Assembly: GCA_903813345.2 (NCBI GenBank)
Contig: CAIIXF020000003.1
Location: 13,222,931-13,286,930, forward strand
Direction: 5' to 3'
Source: Owenia fusiformis
Taxonomy: Eukaryota; Annelida; Polychaeta; Sabellida; Oweniidae
Length of the DNA: 64,000 nucleotides
Position 1 is the first letter of the stretch, and the number at the start of each line of letters is the position of its first letter. Below, in pieces: positions 6,874 to 57,671 of the stretch. Position numbers and translations under genes: made by a program. A model generated the notes under the pieces. The model made no database searches and was not told the origin of the DNA. It worked only from the letters and a program-made list of their open reading frames with translations.

Positions 6874-6879
6874 TTTATT
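6874..6879 (-). promoter_or_regulatory. AATAAA poly(A) signal overlapping the transglutaminase stop codon
   Basis: On the minus strand the last codons read GTG AAA TAA AAG, so a canonical AATAAA hexamer overlaps the TAA stop. If used, it would give a 3' UTR of only a few tens of bases. A later signal inside the neighbouring foldback element cannot be excluded. Confidence 0.45.
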
Positions 6880-7016
6880 TCACAATAATATCAACATCAT
6901 TGGACATGTCAGAAAGTTCGGTAGAGTGAAATGATACAATAAGCTTCCGGTCTCCAGGCCGTCTAGGTGTGTATTTCTGGGCTTCCAGTTTAGCTTCTGC
7001 GCCTGATGGGACCGAT
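6875..7016 (-). CDS. TGM: Transglutaminase exon 14 (last)
   Basis: The acceptor ttttccag precedes the exon. It encodes the end of the second C-terminal barrel ([16 protein letters not shown]...VDIIVK), the usual family ending, and the TAA stop. It begins with the third base of an Ala codon shared with exon 13. Confidence 0.93.
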
Positions 7017-13000: not shown

Positions 13001-16000
13001 TAGTATTATCATACTATTCTATTAACAAATTAGGCTTCTTGACCTCATACAAGATGGGAAATCATGGGTGTATTTACGACGACGGAACAGATGCAGACGT
13101 GTCTGTTTGATTTATACGAAACTTGGTGTACTCACTTGTCCAAAATTCCATGGTTTTGGTCGTATGTTCTTTGCTGTCCCAGAATAGATCTTACCAGAAT
13201 CGTTGAGCACATATTCTCTGCGTAGATTTTCGTCATCAAGGAACACGAGGTCATCTGGAATAGTACACTTATCAATAGAGTGTCATAATTACGACATTGG
13301 TCTAATTTTATGACATGATGTCGTAAACCATCACTTGTTTGTGTGCATGTTATACTGTATGTGATTTTATGTTTGGTACATAACTGCAGTATTTAAAATA
13401 TAACTAGTGTGAACTAGTAAACATTATGAAGTAAAAGCCACTTTGTTGAAAAATTCTTTAAATTCAGTAGTTGCCTTGTCGTTCTTTGTAGTCAAAAAGT
13501 GTTTGGAAACACATCTCATTATCTCACAACTTGGACTTCAAAATGACTAATGGAGAGAATGACTTTTTAAGACATATTGAACTACCAAGAAATATCAAGC
13601 CCTGTTCAATGATTATATCAGTTGCTGAAACGGTCATAATTAAAAGGAGAAAATCATTTACATCGTCATCAAACGCCAAGTCAAAAGACTGAGTGTTGGG
13701 ATGACATACTGGGACATACTCACCCGGGCACCAAGGGTTGAAGAGCATGTATATTGGATCTTCATGTGTGTAACGATACTTCTTCTTGCTGTCGGAGTCT
13801 TTGAATATGGAATCAATCTTGAATTGCCATTTTCCAATAGGGATATCAGGTGGGGTGAAGATAGTCATTACAATCTCTTTGTCCTTCTTAGATTTCACTT
13901 TAGCGCCCCATTGTTTTGGCTTGTCCGCGTCGGAGAGGGTTAGGGTGATGGATGTACCTTTGCTCACTAGAGGTCTTTTACCTGTCATGAAATCACGTAT
14001 ATAAATAAAACATCGACTGGAGGCGGGTTGTAAAGTTTGTCAAATTTAGTTTAATATAGATTTCAACATGATTTATATGCAATACTAAATTGCAGAATGC
14101 AGATGTTCAAGTGATAGGCATGCGCCACAAACATAAACCGAAAGCTTCCTTACCTATTTCAAATATCAAATTAAGGTCGTCTTTCTCTTTCGAAAATTCC
14201 CTATCGAACTCGACCTCGATATCAAAGGATTGCCCTCTCCTGACAACCAACTGGGATTTCATGTATTTATCTCCTTTCATGACATCCGTGATCTCAAACT
14301 TGTCGGTATGATGTGCTTTGACATTTTCAGCAATGTTAAAGTTGACTTTCTGTACTCTTAAGACTTCCTTGTCCGCTTCGGGAATGTCTGAAATTCACAA
14401 AATCACAATAATTATTATCACTATTAGTTGTAATTTTCATATATTGTTTATTCAACTATTGATCCTGGATATAGATTGCATGATTCACATATACTGTCAC
14501 ATTCAAATTATAATGCGATGCGACTTTTTTATATTTTTAGATAATTTACGAGGTTACATCAAGAATCATTGTGGGAGTGTTTTTAAATGAAAATAGATGG
14601 CGTACGTATATATCTAATCAACATTCATGGAGCCCCCTTTCCATCACCAATAAACCGTTGACTTATGTTTTACATTTTGACATTAGACATAATAAAAAAA
14701 ATATTTTAGATTTGACATGTGACCTAACGTTGGTGGTCGAACGGGCTAAATACGTGTCATCCCATTCACACATGGTTCCAAAATGTTATCTATATATTCC
14801 CGACATCGTATAAGCAAGTTGTCAGACAGCTCTTCCAATCGAATTTACATGATAGGGTAATAATAATTATCGGTATTAATTATATGTCGTAATTATATGT
14901 CGTAATTATTTATCAAATTGCTCTCCTGGCACATTTAGACCCTGGAATCATTTGACATCATCAATTTCACATCATCGCATATTATGTTCTATGTTTCCCC
15001 AGTTGTTTTTTTATAATAGAGGTTGGGTTATCAAAATGATTAATGTCGAGCTATGCAACAGGTCTTGCTGCTAACTGCTCATGGATATCATTCTAAATAC
15101 CAACCGGCATGTACGGTTTGTATGTAATAAATATCACTGAGAACGTACACAAACAACATACAGTTTTTAATACATCCTTCAGCAAGCGTTTGCAATGATG
15201 CAGTGATGAGGTCACAACAGTCTCTAACTAGCGTCTAGACGTAGTTATGAGTACAAGCAAACATAAAAAGGGAGTGGGCATCACTTTTACAGCCCATGTA
15301 ATCACATCAATATATTTACCAAGAACACATGGGTGCTGTAAGATGCTACCAAGAACGAATGTATCCGTGAAGTAGCATGTAATTATATGGCATCATACTA
15401 CGAGTACATGTTACATTCATCATATTTTAGTAATTTAGGCCGGAGTATCGGAAAATGACTGGGAAAAGCAATTTATATGGGAATAAACAAACCGATGCTG
15501 TAAATGTGCAAAACATCCTTAAATCTCTGACAATAATTTTCTTGAACCAGAAGAAGATTTTACACCTTTTAAACATATCCATAGAAGATTAGAAAATTGG
15601 CGTTATTAATGATTATACATGTACATGCCCTACTTATAATTTAATCATTGTAAACAATTGAGAATCATGTCCTTTGAAAGGATGACCAAACTATTTAAAT
15701 TAGTATATTTCCTCTCTCGACCCTCTCATATGAATCAATAGGCCCACCTCTGCCTCCATAAACTCCCATATTATCATTCATTTGGTAAAGCATTCATTTA
15801 CTATGTACATGTATCAATCACATCCCTTTATACGATCAATTACTTAACAACAATCGTGAGTGAATGCATACCTAATTAACAGTTGTTGTCATCAGAATGC
15901 TAATGACTTTTGATCTTTAGCTGTTATTATACAGGCCTTTTCAATATATTTTTAGTTTTTTTGTAAATGACCGCATGACACCAATACTTCTATAAACAGA

Positions 16001-16802
16001 CAGAAGGAGCTCCGTGAATGAATTGTTATTTAAATCGATATACGTCCCATTAAACAACGAGTATGGCTATAGTTTATATTGCTTTCAATATTAAAATCGA
16101 TTGAAAAAAACATCTAGAGAAGATCGCGAATTACGTTTTACCATAGACCCGCCGATGTAATTGAAAGTTGTGTTGAACATAACGTAAATGCCATCTACAC
16201 ATGTAAGTGATTATCTTCAAGCTGAATTACAGTTTTCTTCTTATACCTTGAATGATTTATACTCAGAGTGATCTGTGATTTATGGTATAAAGTGATTGAA
16301 GACTAGGTTCTCGGGATGATTTCCGTTAAATCGTTGGTGATACGGCCAAAGAAATATGAAAAATCGATTGTAAAGCACTCTCTACATAAAAAGTGCCATT
16401 TAAAGATTAATCGTCGATACTTGCAATCCGAAAGCTCCTAAATATCACGTTCCAGCCAATTATATTGAACATTTGATGCCGCATACCCATCATTTTATTG
16501 ATATGACTAGTGTTAACCATTAGATCACGTCGTTTAACATTGCGCAATGAGATCTTACCATCGACTGGTTTATAACTAACAATGCCATCATCGGTCAATG
16601 GCTTCGAATCGTTAACTCTCCCACTTGCATGCCTGGCATAATATTCCTCCGGTTGTGTCGGTTTTCTATCCGCAATGTTTCTGTGGGCACCTTCTACTCC
16701 ATTTGCCACAGCCTCAGCCGGTACAGTGCCATCAGTTGGTTTATATGGCACGTTGTCATCCGGTTTAGCGTCAGCGGATTTTCCTGCACAGTTATTCCCC
16801 AT
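6875..16802 (-). CDS. TGM: Transglutaminase (protein-glutamine gamma-glutamyltransferase), 14 exons in the isoform using the nearest first exon
   Basis: The enzyme forms Ca2+-dependent isopeptide bonds between Gln and Lys side chains. Joining 14 exons gives 2370 nt, 789 residues plus stop, with every junction in phase. Domain order: variable N-terminus (1-81), Transglut_N beta-sandwich (about 82-230, with HHTDKFE and LVVRRGQ), catalytic core (about 231-560) and two C-terminal beta-barrels (about 575-789). The triad is Cys370 in YGQCWVF, His429 in NFHVWND and Asp452 in QAIDATPQE. The spacing of 59 and 82 residues is close to the 58 and 81 of vertebrate TG2. Ca2+-site segments FAEVNAD and YKYPE are present. 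The length fits invertebrate enzymes of 750-790 residues. No disabling change was seen, so the gene looks functional. Two further candidate first exons lie 13-18 kb upstream. Identity as a transglutaminase is very secure; orthology to a particular vertebrate paralog is not claimed. Confidence 0.95.
7330..7627 (-). CDS. TGM: Transglutaminase exon 13
   Basis: The exon is bounded by ttttttacag and GC|GTAAGT. It encodes most of the second C-terminal barrel, including [20 protein letters not shown], which matches the family consensus 'NPLP..L..C.FTVEG.GL'. Confidence 0.94.
8353..8551 (-). CDS. TGM: Transglutaminase exon 12
   Basis: The exon is bounded by tttgcag and CTG|GTATGT. It encodes the first C-terminal barrel ([21 protein letters not shown]). 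It starts in phase 0 and ends on the first base of a Glu codon completed by exon 13. Confidence 0.93.
9006..9650. repeat. Inverted-repeat element in a transglutaminase intron
   Basis: Arm 9006-9228 is the reverse complement of 9367-9650. Shared blocks include ggttaac(a/c)(t/a)tgtctcaaaa, tttatcatctc and aaaatccaacatatg. The right arm carries extra bases around 9405-9480, including a gcggtggtcaaaag string that recurs near 10196. Arm divergence suggests an old foldback element. Confidence 0.65.
10564..10646 (-). CDS. TGM: Transglutaminase exon 11
   Basis: This 83-bp exon lies between ttttag and CAG|GTAACT. It encodes the linker between the core and first C-terminal barrel ([16 protein letters not shown]...YDIKDQ). 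It is too short to stand out as an open frame but is fixed by phase on both sides. Confidence 0.88.
10950..11056 (-). CDS. TGM: Transglutaminase exon 10
   Basis: The exon lies between ttaaag and AAA|GTAAGC. It encodes VGKSISTK and [10 protein letters not shown], the conserved 'ISTK...DIT..YKYPE' Ca2+-site segment at the end of the core. A longer open frame overlaps it in another frame; the splice phase and motif decide for this reading. Confidence 0.92.
11326..11485 (-). CDS. TGM: Transglutaminase exon 9
   Basis: The exon lies between atggtag and CCA|GTAAGT. It encodes [14 protein letters not shown] and [12 protein letters not shown], matching the family motif 'CGP.....I..G......F.FAEVNAD...W' that contributes Ca2+ ligands. 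Confidence 0.94.
11735..11838 (-). CDS. TGM: Transglutaminase exon 8, catalytic His and Asp
   Basis: The exon lies between tctgcag and ACG|GTGAGT. It encodes [18 protein letters not shown] and [16 protein letters not shown]. His429 and Asp452 of the catalytic triad are both intact. Confidence 0.96.
11980..12118 (-). CDS. TGM: Transglutaminase exon 7
   Basis: The exon lies between tttacag and ATG|GTAAGA. It encodes [20 protein letters not shown] and EEYNSDSVW, the conserved core segment between the catalytic Cys and His. Confidence 0.95.
12247..12421 (-). CDS. TGM: Transglutaminase exon 6, catalytic Cys
   Basis: The exon lies between tatttcag and CAA|GTAGGT. It encodes [16 protein letters not shown] and [14 protein letters not shown] with the active-site Cys370. 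The flanking Trp-Val-Phe is also intact. Confidence 0.97.
12668..12775 (-). CDS. TGM: Transglutaminase exon 5
   Basis: This exon of exactly 36 codons lies between tgtttag and ATG|GTAAGC. It encodes [17 protein letters not shown] and VSRKISAM, matching the helix that follows 'PWNFGQFED' and the 'V(G/S)R.(V/I)SA(M/L)' segment. Confidence 0.92.
13136..13254 (-). CDS. TGM: Transglutaminase exon 4
   Basis: The exon lies between attccag and CAA|GTGAGT. It encodes [19 protein letters not shown] and RPKPWNFGQ, the strongly conserved start of the catalytic core. Confidence 0.94.
13724..13981 (-). CDS. TGM: Transglutaminase exon 3
   Basis: The exon lies between catgacag and CGG|GTGAGT. It encodes the rest of the N-terminal beta-sandwich, including [10 protein letters not shown] and [10 protein letters not shown], the latter equal to the family motif 'LFN.WCP'. 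Confidence 0.93.
14154..14387 (-). CDS. TGM: Transglutaminase exon 2, first common exon
   Basis: The exon lies between atttcag and TAG|GTAAGG. It encodes the start of the Transglut_N domain: [19 protein letters not shown] and [19 protein letters not shown]. It begins with two bases (AC) of a codon whose first base comes from the upstream exon. All three candidate first exons supply G, giving Asp. Confidence 0.93.
14388..16558 (-). other. Intron between transglutaminase exon 2 and first exon 1a
   Basis: I found no conserved coding segment in these 2.2 kb. There are short direct duplications such as atatgtcgtaattat (near 14882) and several TACATGTA octamers, but no clear mobile element. Confidence 0.6.
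16559..16802 (-). CDS. TGM: Transglutaminase first exon 1a (MGNNC N-terminus)
   Basis: The exon encodes 81 residues plus one base and ends GATG|GTAAGA, giving phase 1 and Asp on joining exon 2. I chose the ATG at 16802 because the upstream in-frame start would be TTG, and because MGNNCAG leaves Gly2 exposed with Cys5 close by, the pattern of N-myristoylated and S-palmitoylated proteins. The rest is hydrophilic, Pro/Lys/Asp-rich, with the short motif (S/P)YKP(T/V)DG occurring twice. This is the shortest route to exon 2. A TATTTAA-like element lies some 45 bp upstream. Acylation is inferred from sequence only. Confidence 0.8.
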
Positions 16803-18557
16803 ATTTGAATACAATTGTTAATTTAACTTTCTTGGGTAGTTTAAATAGCCACTATTGCACACTTTGGATCATGTTGAAGTGTCCCTCTCCGTATACAAAA
16901 CATCCCACGACGTGTGTTTATTAGGAAGTGTTTTACATCGACGCTGCAACCTTTCTGTATATTGACTTATATGCAATAAAAATATGAGTCAAATAAAGTG
17001 TCAGTAATTCTCATTTAATACATATCAAAGGAAGCACGTTTTGTGAAGATCTCAAATCCGATATCATGCTCCATATGAGCTTAATTAAGGTCATATCCTA
17101 TGTGGCGATGTATATCATATTTATCCTTCAGCAATTGCTAATTTATTGAATGCAGACATACGGCGGAGTTCTAAGCCTATGGTATTTAATTACAGGTCAT
17201 ATTAATTCAATATACAACAGTGCAGTCGTTTTAACAACAACACGATGAGCGATTTTCCAATAACTGTTTTAACTGAATTTACTGATCGTACTTGTGCATT
17301 TAATACACGAGCCTCGTCCGCATGAAGACTCTCTCAAGTCCAAGCAACCTATGTGCATTTAAAGTACTTTTGAATTACTGTACTAAAATGTCTTCCAATA
17401 TCCTTTCTAAAAAATCTATTGCTCAATGAATAAGTTCATTCTAATTTGCTACAGAATTAATGAGTTCTTAAACTGGAATATCCCGTCGATAATTCACTTC
17501 TTTTACTTCTTCATAAATCCAATAGAAAAATGTGGAAAAACGATTGCATTGAGTGTCTCGTCTAATTGCATTCGCGTCGTCTCCGTCGTCAGAATCTATA
17601 TCTTAATAGCACATTCGTGGACCTGTGAAGTGCACACTGTTTCACCCGTTGCGACATCTTCTATGTGACGAAACCTTAAAGTCACATTTATCAGCCGGTG
17701 GATCCATACACAAGGTTGTTTACCGAGTCGTCATGTTTCAATATACAATGTAGTAGTCTATTCAAAACTGTCGTTTAATCATTATTAATACAACCTGTCC
17801 CTGTAATAACGCAGGCACAAATGTTGATTTATTTTCTTAACTGTTTGATATATCTGAAAACATGATACGGATTGTGTACTTTATTAGATACGATGGGATA
17901 ATATTTAAGTGTTGTTTAGACGCAGAAATGTAACAATGCCTGATTCACGAACATACTCCACATGAAAGTGGCACCAAGGTTTAAAGCCCCCATATAAATT
18001 TAAATCACTTTTGGCTTATATTGTAGTCTTATGCAGTGTTATCAAAGTGGGATATGAGAAACTCATCTTTTTCATTTCAAAAGGTGTTTTTTAAGGACTT
18101 TTTGTTCGAAAATGATATACTCAATAAATCATTGGTCTATTTTTAAAGTTTAGGACATATAGAAAAGACAGATATCGAAAAAAAAATTTCAGTTTTTCAG
18201 AAAAGTTTTGCCATCTGAGTGTCTGTGATGATGCCATGATGAGGTCACTTAGGTTGCAAAATTTTTGATGTGCTAAAACATTGAATTGGCACATTTTGTT
18301 TTTGAAATAGTGTGTCCTTTGTTCAATCTTTGCATTGGTGTTTAAAAGATAATGTTTTGCACTGTTTAGTGGAGTATTTGATGAATAAAATATTTCAACT
18401 TTTAATTGAAAAATGGCGTAAAATATTTGAAATATGAAAAACTAACAATTTTTTCATAAATCTCTAAAATAACTTTTAAAGTCATGACAAATAGTAAAAT
18501 GAATGATAAAACATATTTTCAAACTTCACATGGGGACTTTAAAGAATATAAAATGTT
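16803..18557. other. Upstream flank of exon 1a; no gene seen
   Basis: This probably contains the promoter for exon 1a transcripts, but no strong element can be assigned beyond the TATTTAA-like string near 16846. Several short forward and reverse open frames are unlike any family. Confidence 0.45.
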
Positions 18558-19290
18558 ACGGGCCAAGATTAGAAGTATACGTTGTGCAATCTAAGAAGTA
18601 TATGTTGCACAATCTAAGAAGCATACTTTGCACAATCTAAGAAGTATATGTTGCATAACGTAAGAAGTATACGTTGCACAACCTATGGAGTATATGTTGC
18701 ACAACCTGAGAAGTATATAGTGGACAATTAAAGAGGTATATATGTTGCACAACCTGAGAAGTATGTGTTGCACAATCAAAGAAATATATGTTGCAAAACC
18801 TGGGAAATATATGTTGCACAACCTAAGAAGTATAATTTGCACAACCTAAGCAGTATATGCTGGACAACATGATAAGTATATGTTGCACAACCTAAGAAGT
18901 ATATGTTGCATAGCATAAGAAGTATGTCTCATAACCTGAGAAGTTATACAGTATGTGCCACAATCTAAGAAGTATATTTCACAACCTAAGAAGTATATGT
19001 TGCACAACCTAGAAATCTACTTTGCACAAACTAGGAAGTGTATGATGAACAACCTAAGAAGTATACTCCGCACAAACTAAGAACTATATGTTGCACAACC
19101 TAAGAAGTACATGCTGGACAACCTAAGAAATATATGTCGCACAATCTAAGAAATATATGTTGCACAACCTAAAAATAAATGTTGCCCAGCTTAAGAAGTA
19201 TATGCTGCACAATCTAAGAAGTATGTGTTGAACAACCTAAGAAGCATTTGTTGCAAAAATTATGAAGTATATGTAGTTAAACCTAAAATT
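18558..19290. repeat. 23-bp minisatellite array, about 30 units
   Basis: The unit is approximately gttgcacaacctaagaagtat plus two bases. Successive units start at 18581, 18604, 18627, 18650 and 18673, a strict 23-bp period that later drifts through small indels near 18930-18980. Units vary at a few positions (caatc/caacc, tatgttg/tactttg), so the array is not freshly amplified. Since 23 is not a multiple of 3, open frames through it are by-products. It lies in the intron between exons 1a and 1b. Confidence 0.95.
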
Positions 19291-19989
19291 TCCATGAATA
19301 AGCAGGAGTTAAACCTAAGGTTAGCTATGGGTGGTTACACAGCAGGTTTGTTTGCTTTATTACAAAACATTTTGACAACAAAAATCGTAACGAAGGATTT
19401 TTGGGGCGCATTTTGCTGTGTATCAAGCCTTTCCACCAACTAACATACCTATTCAGAACATACGGGTGATTATTTAAAGTTATATGAGCCTGGCTATAGG
19501 AAAACTGGTCCTATCACAAAAATTTTAATTGAAATGTGCTACAGAGCCAAAAATGTGCCCACGATTAAGAGGAAAATGTGCTAGATTCAGATCCGACTTT
19601 TTAGTCTATATATGCAAGGAAAAATTGTATAAATTGTTAAACAAAAAATCAGAATATTGAAAAAATCTGTGACAAGACCCCTTTTCCTATGGCCTTGCTC
19701 ATATTATGAACAAGTCAACGTGTGTTGCGTGGGCTGTAAAGAGGCACTAGTGTAGCTTTGCAACATTATGACATTGTGTCATGTATTGTTACAAAGCAAA
19801 AGAACGTGATACTTGGTATACGCTGTTCAGGTATGTCACGGTGTCATCGTTCTCAATCCCTAGTGTAATTAACTAAAGATGTTAGGTCAAAATGCACGCA
19901 TTCCATATCCATTGATGTACATATTTTGATGTATAATAGTGAATGTGCCATATGGATCATTATGATAAACCATGACATCTCATTTCTTC
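19291..19989. other. Spacer between minisatellite and LINE
   Basis: No gene or repeat family was recognised. This is probably ordinary intron sequence flanking the LINE insertion. Confidence 0.5.
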
Positions 19990-22900
19990 TCAGCCCTGAG
20001 ATGTTTCAGGTGAAACAGAAAGTAAATGTCAATGGGTAGATGAAGGAGAAAAGCCAACAAGATACTTCCTAAATCTTGAAAAACACAATTACATAAACAA
20101 AACCATGACAGCCATTGAAGATGAAGAAGGCGTCCTAATAACAGACCAAAAACAAATAAGTGAAGAACAAGCAAAGTTTTACAGTGAATTATATAAAACA
20201 AGAATTGTAGAAACAACTAAATTTGATAAAGACTTTTTCCCAAAAGGAGAAAACCTGGAACTAAACAAAGATGAAAAACAAAATTGTGAAGGGCATATAA
20301 CAGCAGATGAATGCAGAAAACAAATTTCAAACCTCAAGAACAACAAAACCCCAGGAAGCGATGGACTCTCCAGTGAATTTTATAAAACATTTGTAGATGA
20401 CATCATAGACCCAATGTGTGCAAGCTTCAACTACTCAAAAAATAACAAAGACATGACGATAGAACAAAAAAGAGGAATAATTACTCTAATACCCAAAAAA
20501 GGTAAAGATCCAAACAAAATAAAGAACTGGAGACCCATAACCCTACTTAACAACGACTACAAAATAATGACAAAGGCCATAGCAGAACGCATTAAAAAAG
20601 TTCTTTACAAACTTATCAACGTAGACCAGACAGGATTTATATCAAACAGATACATAGGTGAGAACATAAGACTATCACTAGATGTAATGGAACACTTGAC
20701 TCAACAAGGAAAGAATGGCATTATGGCAACTATCGACTTCCAAAAGGCATTCGACTCATTGGAGTGGAAATTCATCTATAAAACCTTGAAGTATTTTAAT
20801 TTTGGCACAGACTTAATAGCCTGGGTTGAAACTTTCTACAATGGAATAAACAGCACTATAATAAACAATGGCTTCACATCCAGGTACTTCAACCTTGAAA
20901 GAGGTGTACGACAAGGCTGCCCATTGAGTCCTTACATATTCATCCTATGTGCAGAAGTTCTTAGCAATGCTACACGGAAGACAGACAAAATAAAAGGTAT
21001 CAATCTAACAGAAAACGAAGAACTCAGAATCTCGCAATATGCAGATGATACCTGCTTGTTCCTTAAAGACGCCTCATATTTAGAAAATGCACTAGATCTT
21101 TTTAATAAATTTGAGATGATATCAGGACTTAAAATCAATAAAGAAAAGACAACAGTAGTAACCATTGGAAAAGACAACCAGATAAACAAACAAAAGACAC
21201 AGAGAATATGCACAAATATTGGAGTGAATCTAGAAGAAAAGGAGATTAACCTCCTAGGCTTAACAATACCGATAGATGGAAGAAACATAGAAGAAATCAA
21301 CTATAGCAAACCAATCAGGACTATACTAAGATTAGCACAAATATGGAAGCAAAGAAATCTATCCCTGATGGGTAAAATCGTGGTTATAAAGTCACTACTT
21401 TTATCACAGTTAACATATCCAATGTCAGTGTTAAAAGCACCAACAGCTGAAATGACCAAAGAACTAGAAAGAATACTATTTGATTTTATATGGGACGGAA
21501 AACCGGACAAAATAGCAAGAAAAACATTAAGAGGGGGAATACCTTATGGAGGTCTTGAAATGACGCATATTCCATCACTTGCTAATAAATTAAAACTCAA
21601 ATGGATTAAAAAATTAACGGACGACAACATAAAAAGTAAGTGGAAAATACTCTGGCAACAGCAGTTTGAAGATATCAGAGAACATGCATGGGAATACAAC
21701 CTCAGAGAAATCAATCCGATGATTGCCAGCAACATCAAACTTACAGCAGCAAGGGACGTATACAATGCATGGTGTGCAATACATTATAAGGAGTACAAGG
21801 ACATCCATACACCCGAAAACCAGATAATTTGGAACAATAGACATGTACAAAATAGAAGAGAGACCTTATATATAGAGGGGTGGAAATCCAAAGGGATAAT
21901 ATATATCAAACAGTTGTATGAGGACAATCAATTAATCCCGTACCAAGCACTGAAAAGGAAATTTGATTTAATAAACACAACATTCATTCAATGGTACCAC
22001 ATCATACACAGCATACCAGCTGAATGGAGAAACCAAATAAAAACACCGAGAAGGCCAGAGACAGAAACTGATGTGAAAGAAAAATCCATTTCTATAAAGG
22101 AACTACAATCAATGACGAATAAGGATACATATAACATACTAATAAAAAGCCACACTGAAGAACCAATAAAACAACAACAACTATGGGAAAAGGCGATAGA
22201 CAACACAAATATAAACTGGAAAAGCAACTACTGTAGAATATACATAACAACAAAGGAAACAAAACTGAGATATTTCCAATATAGAATATTACTTCGAACA
22301 ATATTTTTCAACAAAATGCTACACAATATGAAAATCAAAACAAGCCCACAATGTGAATTGTGTAAAGAAGACAAACAGGATACCATCGAACATGGACTAT
22401 ACGAATGTATAGCTGTCAAACCATTCATAGAGATGGTCACCCAACTGTGTCAAATACAAAACCTGACAAGAGCAAAATACTTCCTAGGAGAGAACACCAG
22501 TTTGGAAGAAAACCTGACGCTACTCTTGGTTAAACACTACATCTATCTCAACAAATTAGACAATAAACCACCAAATATGACAGGCCTCAAGAAATATGTT
22601 GAAGCCCAGGAAATCATAAGCAGAAGCAATGCAGAGAAGAATAACAAGTTAGAAGCCCATGACAAAGCATGGAAAACTGCTCAAAAGATATTCAAGCAGT
22701 AAATAAAAACATTGTAGATCCCTTTACAACATATAGTAAACAGCATTAAAATAGGATAGGAAAGCACACCCCTTGCATTGGTTTTACATACACTTTATTC
22801 TTACTCATTCTTTTATCAATCAACAATCAACAACAATTGCAATTTTATTCAACATTCATTTAGTCAACATACATTTACAACATAACTATAAGTGTATTTT

Positions 22901-23021
22901 TTTGTCTACGTAAATTTTATTTATATTATTAATTGCATTACATTTACATGTACATATTTATATTTACATTTACATGTACATAAATAAGAATGAAGGAAAA
23001 AAAAAAAAAAAAAAAAAAAAA
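19990..23021 (+). mobile_element. 5'-truncated L1-clade LINE insertion
   Basis: The element has an L1-type ORF2 missing its endonuclease part, a 3' UTR of about 300 bp rich in tttacatgtaca strings, and a terminal run of about 26 A ending near 23021. L1 similarity begins at SKCQWVDEGEKPTRYFLNLE just after 20000, below an in-frame TGA, so the 5' junction is near 19990-20010 and is approximate. I could not find a convincing target-site duplication. It lies antisense to the transglutaminase, inside its long 5' intron. The unbroken frame and pure poly(A) suggest a recent insertion. Confidence 0.9.
20105..22702 (+). CDS. L1-type ORF2 fragment: reverse transcriptase and C-terminal zinc knuckle
   Basis: The frame is open for 865 codons from the first Met, and about 35 more codons upstream also match L1. 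Reverse-transcriptase blocks occur in order: NWRPITLLN (about 140), IDFQKAFDSLEW with catalytic Asp211, GVRQGCPLSPYIF (about 270) and QYADD with Asp314-Asp315. The C-terminal CCHC knuckle is Cys750, Cys753, His763, Cys768. The family normally encodes about 1250 residues with an apurinic-type endonuclease in front; that domain is missing by 5' truncation. The domain is intact, but the copy has no promoter or endonuclease and cannot be autonomous. Placement in the L1/Tx1 clade rests on motif style. Confidence 0.9.
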   Translation: MTAIEDEEGVLITDQKQISEEQAKFYSELYKTRIVETTKFDKDFFPKGENLELNKDEKQNCEGHITADECRKQISNLKNNKTPGSDGLSSEFYKTFVDDIIDPMCASFNYSKNNKDMTIEQKRGIITLIPKKGKDPNKIKNWRPITLLNNDYKIMTKAIAERIKKVLYKLINVDQTGFISNRYIGENIRLSLDVMEHLTQQGKNGIMATIDFQKAFDSLEWKFIYKTLKYFNFGTDLIAWVETFYNGINSTIINNGFTSRYFNLERGVRQGCPLSPYIFILCAEVLSNATRKTDKIKGINLTENEELRISQYADDTCLFLKDASYLENALDLFNKFEMISGLKINKEKTTVVTIGKDNQINKQKTQRICTNIGVNLEEKEINLLGLTIPIDGRNIEEINYSKPIRTILRLAQIWKQRNLSLMGKIVVIKSLLLSQLTYPMSVLKAPTAEMTKELERILFDFIWDGKPDKIARKTLRGGIPYGGLEMTHIPSLANKLKLKWIKKLTDDNIKSKWKILWQQQFEDIREHAWEYNLREINPMIASNIKLTAARDVYNAWCAIHYKEYKDIHTPENQIIWNNRHVQNRRETLYIEGWKSKGIIYIKQLYEDNQLIPYQALKRKFDLINTTFIQWYHIIHSIPAEWRNQIKTPRRPETETDVKEKSISIKELQSMTNKDTYNILIKSHTEEPIKQQQLWEKAIDNTNINWKSNYCRIYITTKETKLRYFQYRILLRTIFFNKMLHNMKIKTSPQCELCKEDKQDTIEHGLYECIAVKPFIEMVTQLCQIQNLTRAKYFLGENTSLEENLTLLLVKHYIYLNKLDNKPPNMTGLKKYVEAQEIISRSNAEKNNKLEAHDKAWKTAQKIFKQ

Positions 23022-24032
23022 GGTTCTATGAGTATCAGAATGCATGTGGATCATTCAAATTTTCGCTTAGTTAAAAGAGAGCTTCGTCTACACGATGCGC
23101 ATGAAATTAAAGCGTATTGATATTGATACATGTCAGATATGCCATGAAAACATATCATTTATATATAACATAATATGAAGGAGAATCTTGATATGCATGT
23201 GAATAAACAATATATAAGTATCATGAGTTGTTTTTCAAGATATGCATGCCATTACTGAACATCGATACGTAAAACCGTTGATTATTGTGTAAATACTGAG
23301 TGTCATCGAGGGAAATAGAAAAAATATGTTATTTGAAAAGAAAACAGTGCAAGTGGAATCTTCTTTGTACCGACAGCTTCCTACAGGCATTTAAAAGCAC
23401 CCGTCTTTGGTCTTCTATGATCTCTTAGCAGGAACTTTGAATCTTTCAGGAAATTAGTTAATCTATTTCATAACATGTGGTCTTTGTTTGGCCCACCCTG
23501 TATTTATGTATAGATATAAAGGAGGAATTTGGATTTGGCATGAACATTTGCACACAGCATATTTTCCAGCACATATCACTTTTACAAATAACATTACGAT
23601 CAGTGTTAGGGATGGCCCGAACAACCCACACATACATCCACATTAAAATGCCACTCTTGGAGTTATAAAACTTGATCCCAAATAACATTCACAATCGTTC
23701 AAGTACGTAACCAATTTTTCAATTTCCACCCCACAGTATTGTGATAATTCTATGTAAAATAATGATCGACAATCATTGTTAAATATGACTTCTAAGTTAA
23801 TCTTCAATGTGCCTAAAATTATCATATAATATGGGTGTACCTATTTTGATTAACCTATGAAGTTACCAAAGCAAATACTACTGTAAACACAACAAGTGAC
23901 AACTTGCAAGAAAAGAACAGTTTTAATACGTTTTACGAGACTATCTATTAGGATTCCATAGACACAGTATATATGCAAACTGTGAGAAATAGGCTATGTA
24001 TACAGAACCTAAAATATCAGAACTTAGACATG
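23022..24032. other. Intron sequence downstream of the LINE
   Basis: No gene is seen. A mariner-type end, gtttggcccaccctgta, lies at 23486-23502 without a partner. Confidence 0.5.
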
Positions 24033-27000
24033 TAGTCCGGTGGCCAAGAAGGAAGGGGTCGTTTTAGGGTATAAAGTTTTTTTCTTTGCATATTCTGATA
24101 GTACTTGACATTCTTAAGTAAATTAAACAATCTGCAAAATTTTATAGGTTGAGCATTTTTTTCTGCTGACTCAGCAAATTTTTTACTTTATTTTTCAATT
24201 ATTCTAATTTATCTCACTGAAAAATATATTGTGAGGTTATATTAAGCACTTATTTAACACAGACCTCTTCAAAACTCGACAAATGCATAAAATTATAATG
24301 TCTTAAAAAGTGCTGAGTCATCATTTTTTCTAATAATTGTTTTTTTGCAGATTTATATCGATAATCTTAGAAAATCCAAGTTTTAAGATCAATATTTCAC
24401 AAACTAATGCATTTGTAGGCAAAGGCAAATTGCTTTTAATTGGTTATTATCCCAGACATAGAGTGAAGTCCTCCACCCATTCGTCTGTTATCAAGATGGC
24501 CACCACTTTAAAAATGACGGGACTATTTCGCGAAAATATTAACTCTTTATTTTTAAACCAAAGTACTGAATATTTTTTTTAAATTTTGGTAGTATATTCA
24601 CAACATCCATCTTTTCCACATATATTCTATGTTTTTCACCCTGCCCCCCCCCCCGGGCTGAGTATAGGAGGGAGGGGGTGGGGAAAAAGAAATTTTCATT
24701 AATTTTGAGATCTTTCTGAAGTGTAGCTTTATTATACTCAAATGAAAGGCAATTTAGAGTGGATTGCAAATATTGTATCATTTTTCTGATTCAGACCTCG
24801 AAAAATTCAAAATGGCTGCCTAATGTAGGATTACACAATAATTTCCTGATCCATTCAAAGTATGTCTATATGGCCGAGAGGGCTTGAGCGCCAGCACGTT
24901 CAAACTAAGCAATTAGGTGCTGTAACCACGAGTTTGAGACGTGTGTGCTCCTTGTGTTTATTCATTTATACTCAAATTGAAGTAGATAACAATCATTGTA
25001 TTGTTTCTAGAGTAGAAATTCGCTATTACTCAGCGATTTCTTCAAAGTAAGGCTATATATTTAAGAAATATAGACTGAAGAGCAGGTGTTATATCGACGA
25101 TTACACCATGCAGGGCTAGGTACAAATGTTTTATGTACCCCGAACGACTGAAGGGAGTGAAGTGTTCGAAAGCTTTTGTGCCTAGCTCTATCATATGGGG
25201 TGTACGTATCCTAGCTTATTAGATATGGCATTGCATGCTCTAAATATTTAGATTTTAAGTCAAGACACAATACTTTAGTGATCAAACTGTTAGGTCAAGG
25301 TTATACTTGTAAAAAGTTTAAGAAATACTTTCTGGTCTTTGCTGAAAAATACAAGTCATTAATTTCGAAGTTTTAAGTTTTACCACTTGAGATGCTGAAG
25401 GATGTAGGAATTGTTTAAGAAATTGGCGCTGAACTCACAATTTTTTCAATTGGCACCTTTTGAGGTGGATCCCAGCACTGGCATTAATGGTTGAGAAATA
25501 GGGATCGAAACCAGCCATAGTTCTCTCCTGATGACCATTGTGAATTATTGTGTTTTATGGATTATGGCGATGGCTTTTGCGAATGGATGTTGACCCTTTG
25601 AAACGCCTATGGACTTGTAGACTGGATTTTATCTATCCCACATCATTTGAGACTGAATGCTCTATTTTATATGAGTACTTGTATCTACAACTATTTTTGA
25701 TGTTATGAGTATTGGATATCAATTTCTAATTTTTTCTTCAACATGTATTGTAATGACTTCAGTATGAATGAAATGTCCCTTGGTGTTCTAGTCTTGGATT
25801 GTGATATTGGTTCTTGAATGGCGGGGGAAAGACATTGTTTCTTTTCATGTTAGATCATGGTTTTGGGATATATGGGGTTTGTTTTTCTTGACTGGTATGC
25901 ACTTAGAGTTTGCTTTTTCTTGCTAAGTTCCATTACAACTTTTGGTCCTTTCCCTTTGGCACTCGTGCTTAGATATCTAAGGGGTGTATTTGTCGATATT
26001 ACACATTATTCGTATTACCAGGGGTAGTGTTGAGGAATATACCCCAGGTGAAATTCTGATATATCTGTAATGTATGCCTTTTAATATCTGTCAATTTGAT
26101 CAAGGGTAGAGTAGATGGTAAATAATCACATCATGCCATATACAGATTCATGAATATATTGTAGTGTTCGTTGGGATTTGCTACTCCGTGGAGTTGTCGT
26201 TTTCTAGTTAGATAACTATTACATAATCAACACTGTCGCTGTACTGCTAAACAGTCATTTTCTCCTGAAGCGCGCCATCCAGCCATTCACATTTATGGGC
26301 TTCAAGACTTCTGATGAGACACACTGTATGTCTTCTGGTAAAGCTCCTAAGTAATAATTCTCAACTTTTTCTCAACTAAATTGTGTTGATTCAAGGGCGG
26401 ATGGATTGGGACAATCTGCATATTTCAAGTTTTCCAATGAGCCCCCTTGAAATTTCTGCAATCTGCAAACGCCTTAATTGTTGGGGGTAGGGTTCGAACT
26501 TCATTGCTGTTGTAGATTGTTTTAATCGCTTTATATCCACCACTGCCCTCCCAGGTGATTTTCGCTGCATGGTGGACAGATTCTGCAACTGATGGTTGTG
26601 GTTATGATGCACAAGAAGAATATGCTATATATATCATTCCATGCCATATTCATTTGTAAGATGTTTAGCTTTAATCATCATGGTCATCATTGTGCTAGGG
26701 TCGGATGGTTTCATGTCAGCCAATGGCTAGTACTTTGTTAAGGTGGCAGGCTTAACTGATTTCTCTTCCATTGTAGTCAATCTGGTAAAGTATCCTCCAT
26801 ACTTGGGGATTTAATAGCTCAATATTCTTTTTAGTTGTACTGCCAATATCACCAATGTATGGGTTGACTTCCATCCATTCCAAAAGGACATGTTTGCTCC
26901 AAAATTGTTTGAAATTATCTGTATCAATCTAGATACAACAGCAGAAGCCTTGAACTCCAGCAGTATAGTCCCAAGCGATATTTGTAGAGGTAAATAATTG

Positions 27001-28092
27001 TTGATAACTAAGTTGGTGATTCAGTAATCTCTTAGAGGGGAAAGTTCACAATTGTTATTTTTCACACCTCTATGAAAATGGAATGTTAGTATAGTCACAT
27101 TTTTCGTTTGGATGACATTTTTTGACAAATTAGTTTAAAAAGCATCATATTTTGTATCACATGATGACTTTATAAATTGAGGTACATTGAATATAATTGC
27201 ATGTGCTTCTATCAAAATATGTACTATAGGTATTATCTTTTAACAAAGTTTTTTTTATTGTAATACTATGTAATCAATCTCAAACTAGATATCAGCAACT
27301 CGCACAGATATTAAGACATACATACATTAGAGATATATAAGAAGTTTCACAGATTTAAGCATATGAGTGACCATTAAGGGGTTTCGAAGGTATAAATCAT
27401 CAAGACAATACTATTTGAAATCTAATATAGTATCATGTAACACTACTTTGAAAAGATCTTTAAGTAATACAGAATTCCTGCTCTATGCAGCCATTTTGAA
27501 TCTTAAGGCATGAATTAGGAAAAACAATACTTTAACAGTGACCTGCTCTCACATTCCTTCAAATTGAATATAAAATATGCATACTTTGAAGATCACAAAA
27601 TTATTGCGAAATCCCACACTAGGCGGCCATTTTGAATTTCAGGAGGCCCGAATCAGAAAAATGATACAATATTTGCAATCTACTCTTAATTACCTTTCAT
27701 TTGAGTATAATAAAGCTATACTTCAGAAAGATCTCAAAATTCCTGTTTTCCAGACCCCTCCCCCCATTCACGGCCCCTGGGGGTCAGGCTGAAAACACGC
27801 AATGTATGTTAAATTAAACCTTTGTTCTCTCTATCTCTCCAAAACACATATTTCTCAGTGGTCTAATAATTTTTAATGAATGTTAACATGTTATAACTTT
27901 CAAAGTGCCACGCCCCCTTTGAAATTAATTACATAATTATATGGTGCGATTAAAAAAAATGCTCAACATATATGATTTTGCAGATTATTTCATTTTAAAG
28001 AATACATGTGTAGCAATAGAAAAATGCACAGAAAAAAACTTTATACCTTAAAACGACCTTTAGCCTGTCAGAGGTATTTGGCAACCGGACTA
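24033..28092. mobile_element. 4-kb structure with long inverted terminal arms
   Basis: The left end reads tagtccggtggccaa, and the right end read on the minus strand gives tagtccggttgccaa. Both are followed by ggtcgttttaaggtataaag-like sequence and later by aatctgcaaaat and ttgagcattttttt. An inner pair, 24575-24850 against 27600-27810, is also inverted: aatgatacaatatttgcaat, atttgagtataataaagct and cttcagaaagatct, each next to a C- or G-rich tract. The interior (about 24970-27480) shows no recognisable protein, though minus-strand frames near 26391-26612 may be decayed coding sequence. It could be one foldback element or two opposed copies of a repeat. Confidence 0.65.
24862..24970 (+). repeat. 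tRNA-like SINE, copy 1
   Basis: The segment starts tatggccgagagggcttgagcgcc, resembling the 5' half of a Leu/Ser-type tRNA with an A box, and contains a degenerate B box (gagtttgagacg). Its tail gtgctccttgtgtttattcattt is shared with a second copy at 57190-57262. A working tRNA gene is unlikely. Confidence 0.55.
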
Positions 28093-30141
28093 ATGTTAAT
28101 GCCAAAATATAAATGCTATGGAATTTAGGGAGAGGCATCTCAGAGTTGCCATGATGAGCTATTTTCGTAAAAGTTGGCAAGGGTTGAGCAAGGGTGATAA
28201 ATGACTAGTTAAGTCTACTTTCAGCATGCTCTCTATTTTCTTCACATTCTACCGCATTATCTAATAGGGCAAAACACCTTTTTGAATAGAATCGAGCTGT
28301 TTGTCTTCAGAAACAGATTTTATAAAGTAAGGCATATTTTGTAAATATTCGAAACTGTTTTATGAGAGTTCGGGTAGTTTGTTTGTGTCGTAATATGCTA
28401 TTCATATATTGTAAAACTGCTTATCTTAAGGTTAAAAGCTTGTTTACAAGAGTCGTCTTTACTCCTTGCTCACATCACTAAATGTCATGCATGGCTTTTA
28501 CTCGGGATAATCCGTCGATTTTCTAATGTTATATGGCGAATAATCTCAATGGAACGTCCCTTGAGTTTTCAGTTCTGAAAAATCTGATTATTTCAGAATA
28601 CCAAATATTTAATTACTCTCAAATTTTATCACATATCTCAATTCTATTTTTTCAGAAAATGAAATAATGATTGTGAGGACAAATTGGCATGATTTTTGAA
28701 GAAAATGCTTCAATTATATGTTTACGCTCTCTAAACCCCACAAAGTAAAGTTCGCCCTCCGTTTAACAGTACGCAAGAGATAATCGTTAACGTTAGTACT
28801 TATTTGTTGTTACTTGTTTCTGTCTGACGGGCGATACAGATTACAGGTGCAGATGTGTATGCAACAGATACTGACACCGATACGATCAACATACATGCTG
28901 AGCTAAAAGCGGTCGATAACGCATACGCTACTATCGTGACCCGACGGTCAATTACCCAAAAGTTTTATCACTCGCTGTTTTATTGTTAAATTTGTGTAAA
29001 GTAGGTCCATATTTGTCTCTTAAATTTTGTTCGACTTATTTTTTCTCTCGGAAGATTATCGTGTTTTTTCATGAGGACATGAATTATAGTTGTATGAAGA
29101 ACACGCATAATGACCACTCACAGCGGCTCGCTACTGACGTATAAGTACCACGAAACTACCACTCGAGGGTGAAGTGACGTTTATTGCATTTCAAGGGGAG
29201 ACATTGGAGGTCAAATTATATGAGGAACATGCTTTTTGTTTCGCTTTTTGCCATTTGTTGGTGTCAATAAACAAATACTACATATTATGTAGAGTATATG
29301 GATAAAACAAAATATGATTTTTATTTTATACAATATGCTGTAAAATGCAATGCAATGAAACAAACAATAAGTGTCATTATTCTTTGCAGCCATACTTAAA
29401 GTTGCCCAATAATAAATGATTTAGAAGGGATAGAGAATTCAAAATGTTGGAAGAAATAATTCCAAAAAGCATGCAAGTGCTTTCTATATAATCCTTGCTT
29501 TATTTTCTAGAAAGTTATTTATGACATATCTGATCAAATTAAGATCTAAGATGCAAAAATGTCAATTTTTTTAGAATTCATTCCCCTTTTCAATCTCGTG
29601 CAAGATAACCCAATAAATCAAAGGGTTTTCCTGAAATAAAGTCTCGCATATCGCGTCTATCCCTTCAATTGTTTGCATCTTTGCATACATATACATCTGT
29701 ACATAAGATGCTTGAATTTACATGGCAATTTTTACTTTATACATTTTCGGAATCCATTCTATATTCATGGTGATATACACACCACTTCAAAAAGTGATGC
29801 CCCCCACACACATATTATAGTAGCCATTGATATACTAGTGACAGTATTACCGCAGTAGGAACTTTCCTTTTGATCGAAACGAAAGTAGAAATGTATCTTG
29901 GGTGACATAAAGAGTCAAAGTCCTCTTTGAGGTATCAAGATTGATACATGGGGTCGAACAAAACAGTCCGAATAGAGGTCACAAAAATAACAGTCTCTTG
30001 GGAAATATGGAAAATATATAATTGTACCGTCATGTCCATGTCCATTTACAAAGGAATGCAGGGGAAACAGTTAAAAGGACACCCAATCAACCAAATCTCT
30101 GATAACTCCTGTAACCACACTGTCCTACGCTATTCCCTTAC
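28093..30141. other. Intron sequence between the 4-kb element and exon 1b
   Basis: I see no gene in this stretch. The part around 28720-29170 is less AT-rich and free of recognisable repeats. It could hold regulatory sequence, but nothing specific supports that. Confidence 0.45.
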
Positions 30142-30292
30142 CTTCAACCGGTGGCTGAGCTCTTGGTGGCTCGATAGGTTTTGCAGGACCCACTCTCCCA
30201 GGATGGTTCCTAAAGTAACGATCCCTATCGGTTAAATTATCCCCGGGTTTAGGCTTGGGTTCTTTGCCGACTTTACTGTTGATACAGCCCAT
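30142..30292 (-). CDS. TGM: Transglutaminase candidate first exon 1b (MGC N-terminus)
   Basis: The exon encodes 50 residues plus one base and ends GAAG|GTAAGG, so it joins exon 2 at 14387 in frame with the same Asp codon as exon 1a. The N-terminus MGCINSKVGKEPKPKPG is a textbook N-myristoylation/S-palmitoylation signal (Gly2, Cys3, Ser6, basic and Pro-rich following). The ATG has A at -3 and G at +4. No other transglutaminase core lies downstream, so it belongs either to this gene as an alternative first exon or to a lost duplicate. It is too short to be noticed as an open frame. Confidence 0.72.
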
Positions 30293-33162
30293 TTTGAATG
30301 TATCTTCTCTCTGATTTGTGTATATATGTTAATGATAATTATTATCTTCTCCTATCTGCTTTAAATAAGCACTACATGTGATGTGGGCTATTTTGAAGAC
30401 ATTGAGACTTGCAACTGAAATGTAATTTCACTTGAGCGAAACAAGTTGTTAATAGTTATCCAATCTCTACTTCGGTTCCTTAAGTCTAACTATTTTTTGT
30501 TGGAAAAATGACAAGTGAAAATTATGAGCCACAACAATGAGTCAGGCCGAGTAGCATATGTACAACAATAATTGTCGCTAAAGAATGTTTCGAATGACCT
30601 CAAAACAAGTACTTCAATCTATTTTTATGTACAAGCTATCAATCAAATCCTCATAGTCTGAATCTATCGGTATTTCACGTTCACGTTAACTCCAGCCTCA
30701 GTTGTATCACCCTTATCTCGATTCCCTTTTCCGAAATCGCCTGGAACCTCACGACTCACTGTTCCTAATCATCCGCGGAAGATACAGCATGAAAGATCTA
30801 TCTGGGGGCCGATGCGAACGCTTCTCAGTTGCCGCAATAAACCGAGCGCTTGTTTCTTGTTTGGATTTGGAATTTCACCTTTCCCCGTATTTATTTAGAA
30901 ACATAAACTGTTTCCATAGCAACATATATACTTAGAATGGTATCAACCTAGATGTTTTTCTGACATTGGTATGTTTACCGGCCTATCTGGCAGTCTTGTA
31001 ACGTGATAAATGAGCGCTATGGGAAACCGATGTCCTTGTATCCATATACTTTCCCGTTGTTTTTCTATAACATTACAAAACATGTACTTGTCTAAGACCT
31101 AAACGTTGTGTTGCCATGGTGAAAAAATAAATGGTCACCTTGCCCCGTGTTTGCTGAGAAACCAGATTCTTTATATGAGAGATAGACTATCTGCATGAAA
31201 TGTAAAATATAAGCGCCTTAAAACTCTCGGAAGAAACTTGTACCTCAATTACAAACAAGTCATTTACATTACAAGATGTCGCAACCTACAACCCAGAAAA
31301 ACAGCAGTAACAAGTGTTACAGGCGCCGGTCGCAAAATGGTGTCATCGTGTGTATTACAACATATGTTTGTCAAGACGTATTGGTCATGACATAAAAAAA
31401 TATATACATATGGCAAAATTATAATTCATTTATAGAAATTAAAATAGCCCTCTCCTTATGTTTAATTCAAGTTTGGAGTATATCATGTCCTACCAAAATT
31501 AGGTCCCCCTTTCCAATAATTTATATAATGACATAATTCTCTGTCGTTCCTTTTATTTCAAATACTCTGACAATCAGGGCTTGCACTTCGTAAATGTATA
31601 GACGATTGGAAAATGACATTGATGTACGAATGGGCAAAATTATCAGAACTGGACTTTAATTTTCAAAAAGTGACTTTTTATTGCCTGATGGCTGCATCCA
31701 CCAATAGGATGTTTACTATTATAATGTACATGTATATCGCTGATCATTTCCAAGCGATTTAAAGAAAACTGTAGTTATCTAATGTGCGGCCACATCTTCA
31801 AAACTATCTTCTCAACCAGCTTCTTTGTACTTTTGTAAAAACAGTAAACAAAGTAATTTTATTTACTAACATCGACAGGCAGCTGTTATAGTTAACCTAT
31901 CAGTCAAAGTAGTATTGCTCTATAATATTCTTACAGATATGTGGGCAACGCGGTAAGGTGGATAGGATTCACTTCAAGGATCTTACTAATTAAATCTGTC
32001 TGGGTTGGTGATTTATTAAAAATTATTTCATTTTAGCGTATATATTACAGACACACTGTTCCAATTAGGAAAATCATTTTTGATTTTTCTTTTAAATCCC
32101 AACCGGTAGCGGGTAACACACGGACACGAAAAGTATGTATTTAACTAATACGAAATCATCTCTCTATACACTGCTGCATAAAAATAGTATTAATTCTTCC
32201 ATATGTTGTATATTAATATCTGAATCATCTAGGCTTTCTGTAACCATGCCATCTTTTAGAAGGTTAAGATTCGCAGCTCAAAGGTGAATCAAACCACTGT
32301 ATTCTACAGGTAGGTTGCAGACAGGATTGATTCACACGCGCATTTTTTGTTTCAATCTTTGTCATCTTTGATTTCGTTTACGTGTATATGCATAAACTTC
32401 TGAACAAAGTTTGATTACACACAGCGCATGGTTTAAGATCGGACGTTTTACATCGTCCGTTATTTCGCCTGATTATTGCCATGATCATAGTTTTCCGTTC
32501 CTTTGTCCTAGATTGTGCAACCTTTTTAATCTGTTTCATTTCATATATTTCATAATTTAATACATTGCAATTCAATAGAAGAATGTCGACAATGGTGGTT
32601 TTTACGTGAAATAGTATCATAGGATACTCAAAGTATCACCCATTGACTAACAAATTAAAAAGACTTAGCCTGTATTCGCGAATGCAGCTTTCGGCTGTCG
32701 GCTACCGAATTAACTTTCAAATCTTTTATACATTAACAGTTTAACGTATTTTCAATTTATGTTGAACGTTTTTATCTTTGAAAACTTTTGTCTTTAAAAA
32801 GTTTTTATCTTTGATTCAGAGGTTTGCCTCATGAACACGCCTGATAAATACGTACTTTACACATTGCCTAAGCAGTTATTAAATGATTTAAGCCCTGGAC
32901 TCAGTGCAATGCGGAATGACCATTCCTTGAAGGTGTTGTTTTCCTAAAGCACAGTCGCGAGATGCAGAGCATCGTGTGTTAATTTTAAGAAACTACGCCT
33001 GAAAGGAATAGTCATTACCCAATGCAATAATGAGTCGTGGGCTTACATTTCTTTTCACAATTCACACATTCCAAAATATTTTCTTCAAAATCATCTAACA
33101 GATACAAAATCACTACTTTAATCTGGCTGTGGTCGGGAAATATGTCTAAAATAATTAGCAGT
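30293..33162. other. Intron sequence between first exons 1b and 1c
   Basis: No further coding exon was recognised. It is AT-rich, with no clear mobile element. Confidence 0.45.
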
Positions 33163-33860
33163 CGTTCTTAAACAGTCTTCAATACGTCCATCTCGTTCGC
33201 AGTTCGTTCAGGTCGCACCACGTCGGTATGCAACGTCGTAGAACGCGTCCCTTAGTCTAGAAGGTCAACATGACCTGATTACAGAACGGTATGGTCGCCA
33301 TCGAATTTTGAATCGATTCAAAATTCTAAAATTACCTTCCCGTCTGATAACGTTCATGAAGTTCGTAAATAGACCTACAAAGTTGCAGCTACGTTCATTC
33401 CGTTCGCACTCAGTTTAAAACCAGTTTTGAAGAACGCAGTGTCAACTTGTTTGGTGTGATAGCTATATTTTTGCCAACTCGTTCATAAGCAGTGTTAAAT
33501 ACGTTCTTAATCAGTTTAAACCCGTTTGCAATTAGTTCTACCTCGTTCTCAATACGTCCTCAGACAGTTCAACTCGTTGTTAAAACGTCCCTTGTAGGAT
33601 TGAAGTACGACGGTTCCGTTCGTAGTACGTCAAGCTCGTCGTTAGTTAGTTGTAACTTGTTCTAATTGTAGAACGTATCGATCACGAGAACATTTTGAGC
33701 ATGTTCTAAGTTCTAGAGGACCTACCCGTTCGAGTACGTTCGATGAAGTTTGTAAATAGACCCCAAACGGTTCTAAGTACGTCCAGTCCGTTCGTCCACA
33801 GGTTGAAGCCCGTTTTCGAGAACGTTGTGAAAACTAGTTTGGTGTGATAGTAGGGTAATG
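33163..33860. repeat. CpG-rich block of CGTTC-like motifs phased at 10-11 bp
   Basis: Short motifs (cgttc, cagtt, agttc, cgtcc) recur almost every helical turn, for example from 33478 to 33670. Two copies of a segment of about 115 bp bound its second half (33348-33470 and 33732-33850); both contain gttcgtaaatagacc or gtttgtaaatagacc and end gtttggtgtgatag. CpG is far denser than in the flanks. It has no coding potential. It may be the subterminal region of an unidentified DNA transposon or a regulatory array. Confidence 0.6.
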
Positions 33861-34286
33861 TTTGTCAAATCCCAGCTAATCAGGAAAACAGTATTTCATA
33901 CAATTGCATTGCTAATACAGGTCGAATGATGAGTTTTAAATGCATGAATGTCGTCAAGGTTATGAATTTGATTTCAGTGTTACCCCATTCACCCGTACAG
34001 TAAGTTTTCTTTTCAGAAAACATCAAAAATTCTGCGAGATATTGGTAAAAGTCTTTCGCAACGTGTGAGAAGAATTTTTCAAATTCAGTTTCCCAACGTT
34101 CCTTCTAATATATACCAACTTATTTAGCCTATGATAGTAGCAATGATTGGAAAATAAATCACTATCACAAGCCATTCGTGTTTATAACTTTTTTGAAGAA
34201 ATTAGTTCAAAGTCATGATTTGCACTTTTTATTAGAGAATATCAAAGCCACAGTGATATTTGGTTGTGTACGGTTTAGTTACTTAC

Positions 34287-34461
34287 CCGTATCTAGCTCT
34301 ACTATGGTTCGGTAATCTCTGATGTCGAAATGACAACCTGGTTCCCTATAGTACAACGAGGTCCTCGATCTCGGAGTCCAATCGAAAGTGGATCTGTAAG
34401 ATCTACCCCGGTCCAAGAGTCCGGTGGAAGAATAGCGATTGCGGCTGTAGTAACGTGACAT
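34287..34461 (-). CDS. TGM: Transglutaminase candidate first exon 1c (Arg/Ser/Tyr-rich N-terminus)
   Basis: The exon encodes 58 residues plus one base and ends ACGG|GTAAGT, again phase 1 with G, so it would join exon 2 in frame. The peptide begins MSRYYSRNRYSSTGLLDRGR, is basic and rich in Arg, Ser and Tyr, and has no Gly2, so this isoform would not be myristoylated. The ATG has A at -3. Support is weaker than for 1a and 1b because the peptide has no family motif. It is the most upstream candidate, some 20 kb from exon 2. Confidence 0.62.
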
Positions 34462-57442: not shown

Positions 57443-57671
57443 TTAAGTTAGTACATTGACACGTGATCTCTCGACAGTTTTTATCTTGTAAGCATGCATC
57501 CTCATGATCTCACCATATATTGACAAACGAGGGTCGTAGTTTGGAGGGCATCCGTCAGTTTCAGGGTACAGCGTGAAGCGCTGGAGCAAGGTGGTCATGA
57601 ACAGGAACATTCGGATCTTAGCCAACTGTTCTCCGACACACACCCTCTTACCACCTCCGAATGGCAACAAA
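57443..57671 (-). CDS. P450 exon with haem-binding loop (last)
   Basis: The acceptor gttgtag precedes T|TTG. It encodes [18 protein letters not shown] and the C-terminus ending RSRVNVLT. Confidence 0.92.

Follow-up and report, generated by a model that had tools for sequence, protein, structure and literature searches.

Can one transglutaminase gene acquire different N-terminal targeting signals through the choice of its first exon? The question is raised by a gene, here called gene A, on the minus strand of a 64,000-nucleotide stretch of Owenia fusiformis DNA (the window). The original prediction gave this gene three alternative first exons (1a, 1b, and 1c), two of them encoding an acylatable N-terminus and one not. 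Transglutaminases of several animals lack classical secretion signals, and their route to the outside of the cell or to the membrane is partly open. We find that the sequence pattern of three phase-1 initial exons is real and not a product of chance, and we consider it reasonably likely that a single gene of the factor XIII A type has three alternative first coding exons here, all three in use.

Results

The body of gene A

Exons 2 to 14 of gene A were modeled from splice sites and alignment (Table 1). This body runs from 14387 to 6875 with GT-AG boundaries at all introns and no internal stop, and the frame is open through 14 exons, giving 789 (1a), 758 (1b), or 766 (1c) amino acids. The N-terminal, core, and C-terminal transglutaminase domains all matched over the Pfam cut-off (PF00868, E value of 6.9e-34; PF01841, 7.7e-12; PF00927, 2.1e-28). 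The closest solved structures were factor XIII A entries (1evu, E value of 7.6e-151), the alignment beginning at residue 80 of the 1a form, just ahead of the exon 1/2 junction. The sequences YGQCWVF and NFHVWND and a 10-residue stretch of exon 8 aligned with the Cys, His, and Asp regions of factor XIII A, and we take these to hold the catalytic Cys-His-Asp of gene A. With the three domains and these stretches, gene A is an intact transglutaminase gene of the factor XIII A type, and the targeting exons would precede a complete, apparently active enzyme.

Table 1. Positions of gene A exons, candidate promoter elements, and paralogous genes (window coordinates unless a contig is named)
Feature	Position	Strand	Remarks
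Exon 1a (candidate first exon)	16559..16802	minus	MGNNCAGK...; 81 codons + 1 nt; 244 nt
Exon 1b (candidate first exon)	30142..30292	minus	MGCINSKVGK...; 50 codons + 1 nt; 151 nt
Exon 1c (candidate first exon)	34287..34461	minus	MSRYYSRNRYS...; 58 codons + 1 nt; 175 nt
Exon 2 (common)	14154..14387	minus	phase 1 at both ends; start of N-terminal transglutaminase domain, PF00868 match
Exon 3	13724..13981	minus	GT-AG boundaries, frame, factor XIII A alignment
Exon 4	13136..13254	minus	gene model
Exon 5	12668..12775	minus	gene model
Exon 6	12247..12421	minus	YGQCWVF, aligned with factor XIII A active-site Cys region
Exon 7	11980..12118	minus	gene model
Exon 8	11735..11838	minus	NFHVWND and 10-residue stretch, aligned with catalytic His and Asp regions
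Exon 9	11326..11485	minus	gene model
Exon 10	10950..11056	minus	gene model
Exon 11	10564..10646	minus	gene model
Exon 12	8353..8551	minus	gene model
Exon 13	7330..7627	minus	gene model
Exon 14	6875..7016	minus	holds stop codon; gene model
TATTTAA box, candidate core promoter of 1a	16841..16847	minus	begins 45 nt before ATG; consensus match only
TATTTAA box, candidate core promoter of 1b	30361..30367	minus	begins 75 nt before ATG; consensus match only
Gene B	contig C3		tandem neighbor of A
Gene C	contig C3, near 29.67 Mb		
Genes D and E	contig C3, near 34.13-34.14 Mb		E is a tandem copy

Phase, junction, and coding start of the candidate first exons

The coordinates, frames, phases, and donors originally given for 1a, 1b, and 1c proved exact on re-reading. 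All three lengths equal 1 modulo 3, with a single G left over in each, and the donors (GTAAGATC for 1a, GTAAGGGA for 1b, and GTAAGTAA for 1c) all have the form G/GTAAG in phase 1. The exon 2 acceptor is TTTTGTGAATTTCAG, with 14387 as the first base of the exon, and every junction to it creates GAC, the same Asp codon as had been claimed.

In-frame stops end 15 nt (1a), 36 nt (1b), and 27 nt (1c) before the ATG. The gap between stop and ATG contains no AG in 1a; there are four AGs in 1b and two in 1c, preceded by 5 to 9 pyrimidines in 18 nt versus 10 to 13 of 18 for the 13 modeled acceptors of gene A, and two of those in the 1b gap but none in the 1c gap are in phase 1. With stops so near and no convincing acceptor in the gaps, coding most likely begins within each of the three exons. 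Untranslated exons farther upstream, or intermediate exons, are possible.

Exon 1a also carries an internal repeat (DAKP..YKPTD / DSKP..YKPVD; window 16802-16560, minus strand), equaled in 12 of 5,000 shuffles.

N-terminal acylation patterns

The PROSITE N-myristoylation pattern requires Met followed by G-{EDRKHPFYW}-x-x-[STAGCN]-{P}. Tested against it, the claim of two N-termini with the acylation pattern and one without it held up: 1a (MGNNCAGK) matches, with Cys at residue 5, as does 1b (MGCINSK), with Cys at residue 3 and a Lys-rich stretch after it, and 1c (MSRYYSRNRYS) does not match, being rich in Arg and Tyr (31% together). The pattern occurs at 41 of the 3,541 open ATGs of the window and 13 further loci; at 11 of the 3,541, those of 1a and 1b included, it is accompanied by a Cys among residues 3 to 7. 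The start of 1b lies close to the MGC-I-x-SK, then Lys, of the Src-family SH4 region (Lyn and Yes; compared by eye). No kinase is present in the gene A product, and the likeness is one of a short motif.

Comparison of the candidate exons with background

When both strands of the whole window were scanned strictly, for an ATG, at least 45 open codons, and a phase-1 G/GTAAG, exactly three matches came up, namely 1a, 1b, and 1c. These criteria, applied to both strands of the 13 further loci (129,931 bases), gave a single match, whose sequence reads like that of a retroelement fragment. When GTAAG was retained but the preceding G was not required, the window gave four phase-1 matches, the fourth being a reverse-transcriptase open reading frame (ORF), together with three in phase 0 and six in phase 2, scattered elsewhere; many of the extra matches, over all phases, were true internal exons or this same ORF.

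Candidates were also ranked by a combined codon and donor score, with a codon model trained mainly on exons 2 to 14 of gene A itself, plus neighbors. Within the 24.6 kb of minus strand from 14388 to 39000, 1a (40.0), 1b (25.3), and 1c (23.6) were the three nonoverlapping phase-1 candidates scoring at least 23, the next reaching 12.9. No candidate in phases 0 and 2 of this region scored as high as 23, and on the plus strand the reverse-transcriptase ORF alone did. The minus strand was also dinucleotide-shuffled 200 times, and no shuffle reached 23 (mean top score, 11.1; maximum, 20.0). In an earlier test with broader training (1,655 codons), the score of 1a lay above those of all 483 null windows, and 0.2% and 1.0% of them reached 1b and 1c, respectively. 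By synonymous codon choice alone, 29% (1a) and 74% (1b) of null windows were as high, so neither stands out by that measure.

It is very improbable that all three exons are chance open frames that happen to have good donors. Short exons are prone to chance, and these were chosen after the sequence had been seen, but the strict scan recovers precisely these three, no shuffle attains their score, and a rare N-terminal pattern occurs in two of them. As first exon of gene A, 1a has strong support from these comparisons, 1b good support, and 1c moderate support.

The grading of 1c bears on another reading, in which only 1a, and perhaps 1b, serve gene A, and 1c is a chance frame or an exon of an unrecognized gene. 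The stretch would then yield only acylated forms, or a non-acylated form would draw on an exon elsewhere. The codon score of 1c is the lowest and is less frame-specific than that of 1a, two other frames beating its own; its peptide gave no Pfam match over the cut-off (one was subthreshold, with an E value of 0.076); neither TATTTAA nor a looser TATA match occurs in the 150 nt upstream of it; and it lies 19.9 kb from exon 2. On the other hand, the donor of 1c, at 11.5 bits, outscores those of 1a and 1b and is in the correct phase, and no candidate as good as 1c arose in the shuffles or in phases 0 and 2 of the minus strand. We therefore regard the restriction to 1a and 1b as unlikely, while giving it real weight.

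Candidate promoters

TATTTAA boxes lie shortly upstream of 1a and 1b (Table 1). This motif, picked after the sequence had been seen, occurs 50 times in the window on both strands, or 0.04 times per 100 nt of strand. The boxes are a hint of separate promoters for 1a and 1b, and on the reading that we favor each of the three exons would probably have a promoter of its own.

Neighborhood of the candidate exons

Between 1a and 1b lies the plus-strand reverse-transcriptase ORF (20000-22702), uninterrupted over 900 amino acids and with matches to RVT_1 (E value of 1.9e-41) and zf-RVT. The next large ORF beyond 1c is on the minus strand at 39189-40139 (316 amino acids) and had no Pfam match at an E value of 0.1.

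These surroundings bear on whether 1a, 1b, and 1c belong to a nested or neighboring gene and not to the transglutaminase. In favor of such a gene, the 316-residue ORF lies 4.7 kb upstream of 1c, and first introns of 15 to 20 kb would be far longer than the others of gene A (128 to 2012 nt). However, the eight longer ORFs tested on the minus strand from 26 to 38 kb had no Pfam match at an E value of 0.1, so no other gene there lays claim to 1b or 1c, within a search by Pfam that a gene without Pfam domains would escape. Exon 2 moreover requires a first exon ending in phase 1, and all three do so. We judge ownership by another gene improbable.

Three further features of the minus strand were seen. 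The ORF at 39189-40139 has an apparent transmembrane stretch and a Ser/Pro-rich tail. By eye from the ORF list, exons at 46074-53224 resemble an SLC17-type transporter and exons at 57443-58764 a cytochrome P450.

The proposal of three first exons thus stands in part. Exons 1a, 1b, and 1c are far above background as initial exons of gene A, and among the acceptors found they fit that of gene A only; from the sequence we infer their transcription, their splicing, their separate promoters, and the acylation and destinations of the three forms.

Paralogs and the origin of the exons

The transglutaminase N-terminal domain matched five places in the genome, all on contig C3 (genes A to E). A Pfam search of the genome with the core domain listed only another gene, on contig C10, gene A being missed because several exons share out its core. 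The homolog of exon 2 starts with AT after AG in C, D, and E, and it would likewise complete an Asp codon in phase 1 behind a first exon with a terminal G; that of gene B starts with CG farther upstream. The exon 1/2 junction is thus probably old.

Relatives of the first exons themselves were sought in several ways. A whole-genome search with the 1a, 1b, and 1c peptides at E values up to 10 returned self-matches only (a shallow search, with one candidate each), and tblastn of the peptides against the window and the 13 loci gave nothing convincing apart from one weak match between 1a and 1b. Ranking of initial exons under a single-exon model, over the 15 to 30 kb ahead of genes B to E, produced no well-scoring exon with an acylation pattern; one pattern match, upstream of E, scored 1.1. 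The protein score of 1a against 1b, the best of three pairs, was equaled in 69 of 5,000 shuffles and their DNA score in 318 of 1,000, which is no more than suggestive of a common origin. No similarity was found between 1c and the N-terminal exons of B, D, and E, for which 1,019, 3,276, and 1,677 of 5,000 shuffles, respectively, were as high.

In gene D, an N-terminal exon is rich in Arg and Trp, and there are two candidates for a first exon in phase 2. One (L010:1628-1831) encodes 68 amino acids rich in Arg, Gly, and Trp, with a TATTTAA about 80 nt upstream; the other (L010:5087-5128) encodes 14 amino acids and is conserved in E (L012:4197-4238) with the same strong donor. Gene D may thus also have two alternative first exons, in phase 2. 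In gene B (L001:9543-9841, minus strand), a basic PYKRRRK just before the N-terminal domain reads, by eye, like a nuclear localization signal.

Discussion

The reading that we favor, three first exons serving gene A, can be set against known transglutaminases. Annulin is an insect transglutaminase that is membrane associated and N-terminally acylated; the predicted 1a and 1b forms would be alike in this, as far as a comparison by description goes. Annulin is not known to have alternative first exons. Vertebrate transglutaminase 1 (TGM1) and factor XIII A have the same catalytic architecture as gene A. Factor XIII A carries an activation peptide, and TGM1 is anchored to the membrane by a palmitoylated Cys cluster without Met-Gly, unlike the Met-Gly plus Cys of 1a and 1b.

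The original prediction also invoked a precedent in Drosophila, whose transglutaminase was said to have an acylated, exosome-secreted form and another with a different N-terminus. The fly gene, CG7356, gives TG-A and TG-B, and TG-B is the form with the different N-terminus. The first half of the precedent is borne out by a published review, in which one transglutaminase gene yields an acylated form that exosomes release (PMC7023112); the primary source for this release is a 2017 JBC paper cited there. Gene A differs from CG7356 in that three first exons are candidates and that two of these, 1a and 1b, carry acylation patterns. Three first exons in one transglutaminase gene are not described in the published passages sampled. 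To choose among three starts, two of them acylated, would be a variation on the two-form arrangement of the fly, extending a known principle.

We propose that 1a, 1b, and 1c would each be transcribed from their own promoter and all be spliced to the common exon 2. A transcript starting with 1a or 1b would give an enzyme with its N-terminal Gly myristoylated and the adjacent Cys palmitoylated, and this double acylation would tether it to the membrane and possibly lead to release in vesicles. A 1c transcript would give a non-acylated enzyme with an Arg/Tyr-rich tail. Because the catalytic body is identical in all three forms, promoter choice would decide where crosslinking occurs. A wider version of this proposal, which we put forward tentatively and hold to be somewhat doubtful as a whole, is a three-promoter address switch with a Src-like 1b, a second acylated form from 1a, and a non-acylated 1c, in which 1a and 1b may stem from exon duplication, gene D may be organized likewise, and N-terminal switching would recur in the family.

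If three first exons are indeed in use, one species could serve to test whether the N-terminus alone picks cytosol, membrane, or vesicle export, and it could show whether the two-form arrangement of the fly is more widespread. N-terminal switching, if recurrent, would give this enzyme family a way of setting the site of crosslinking.
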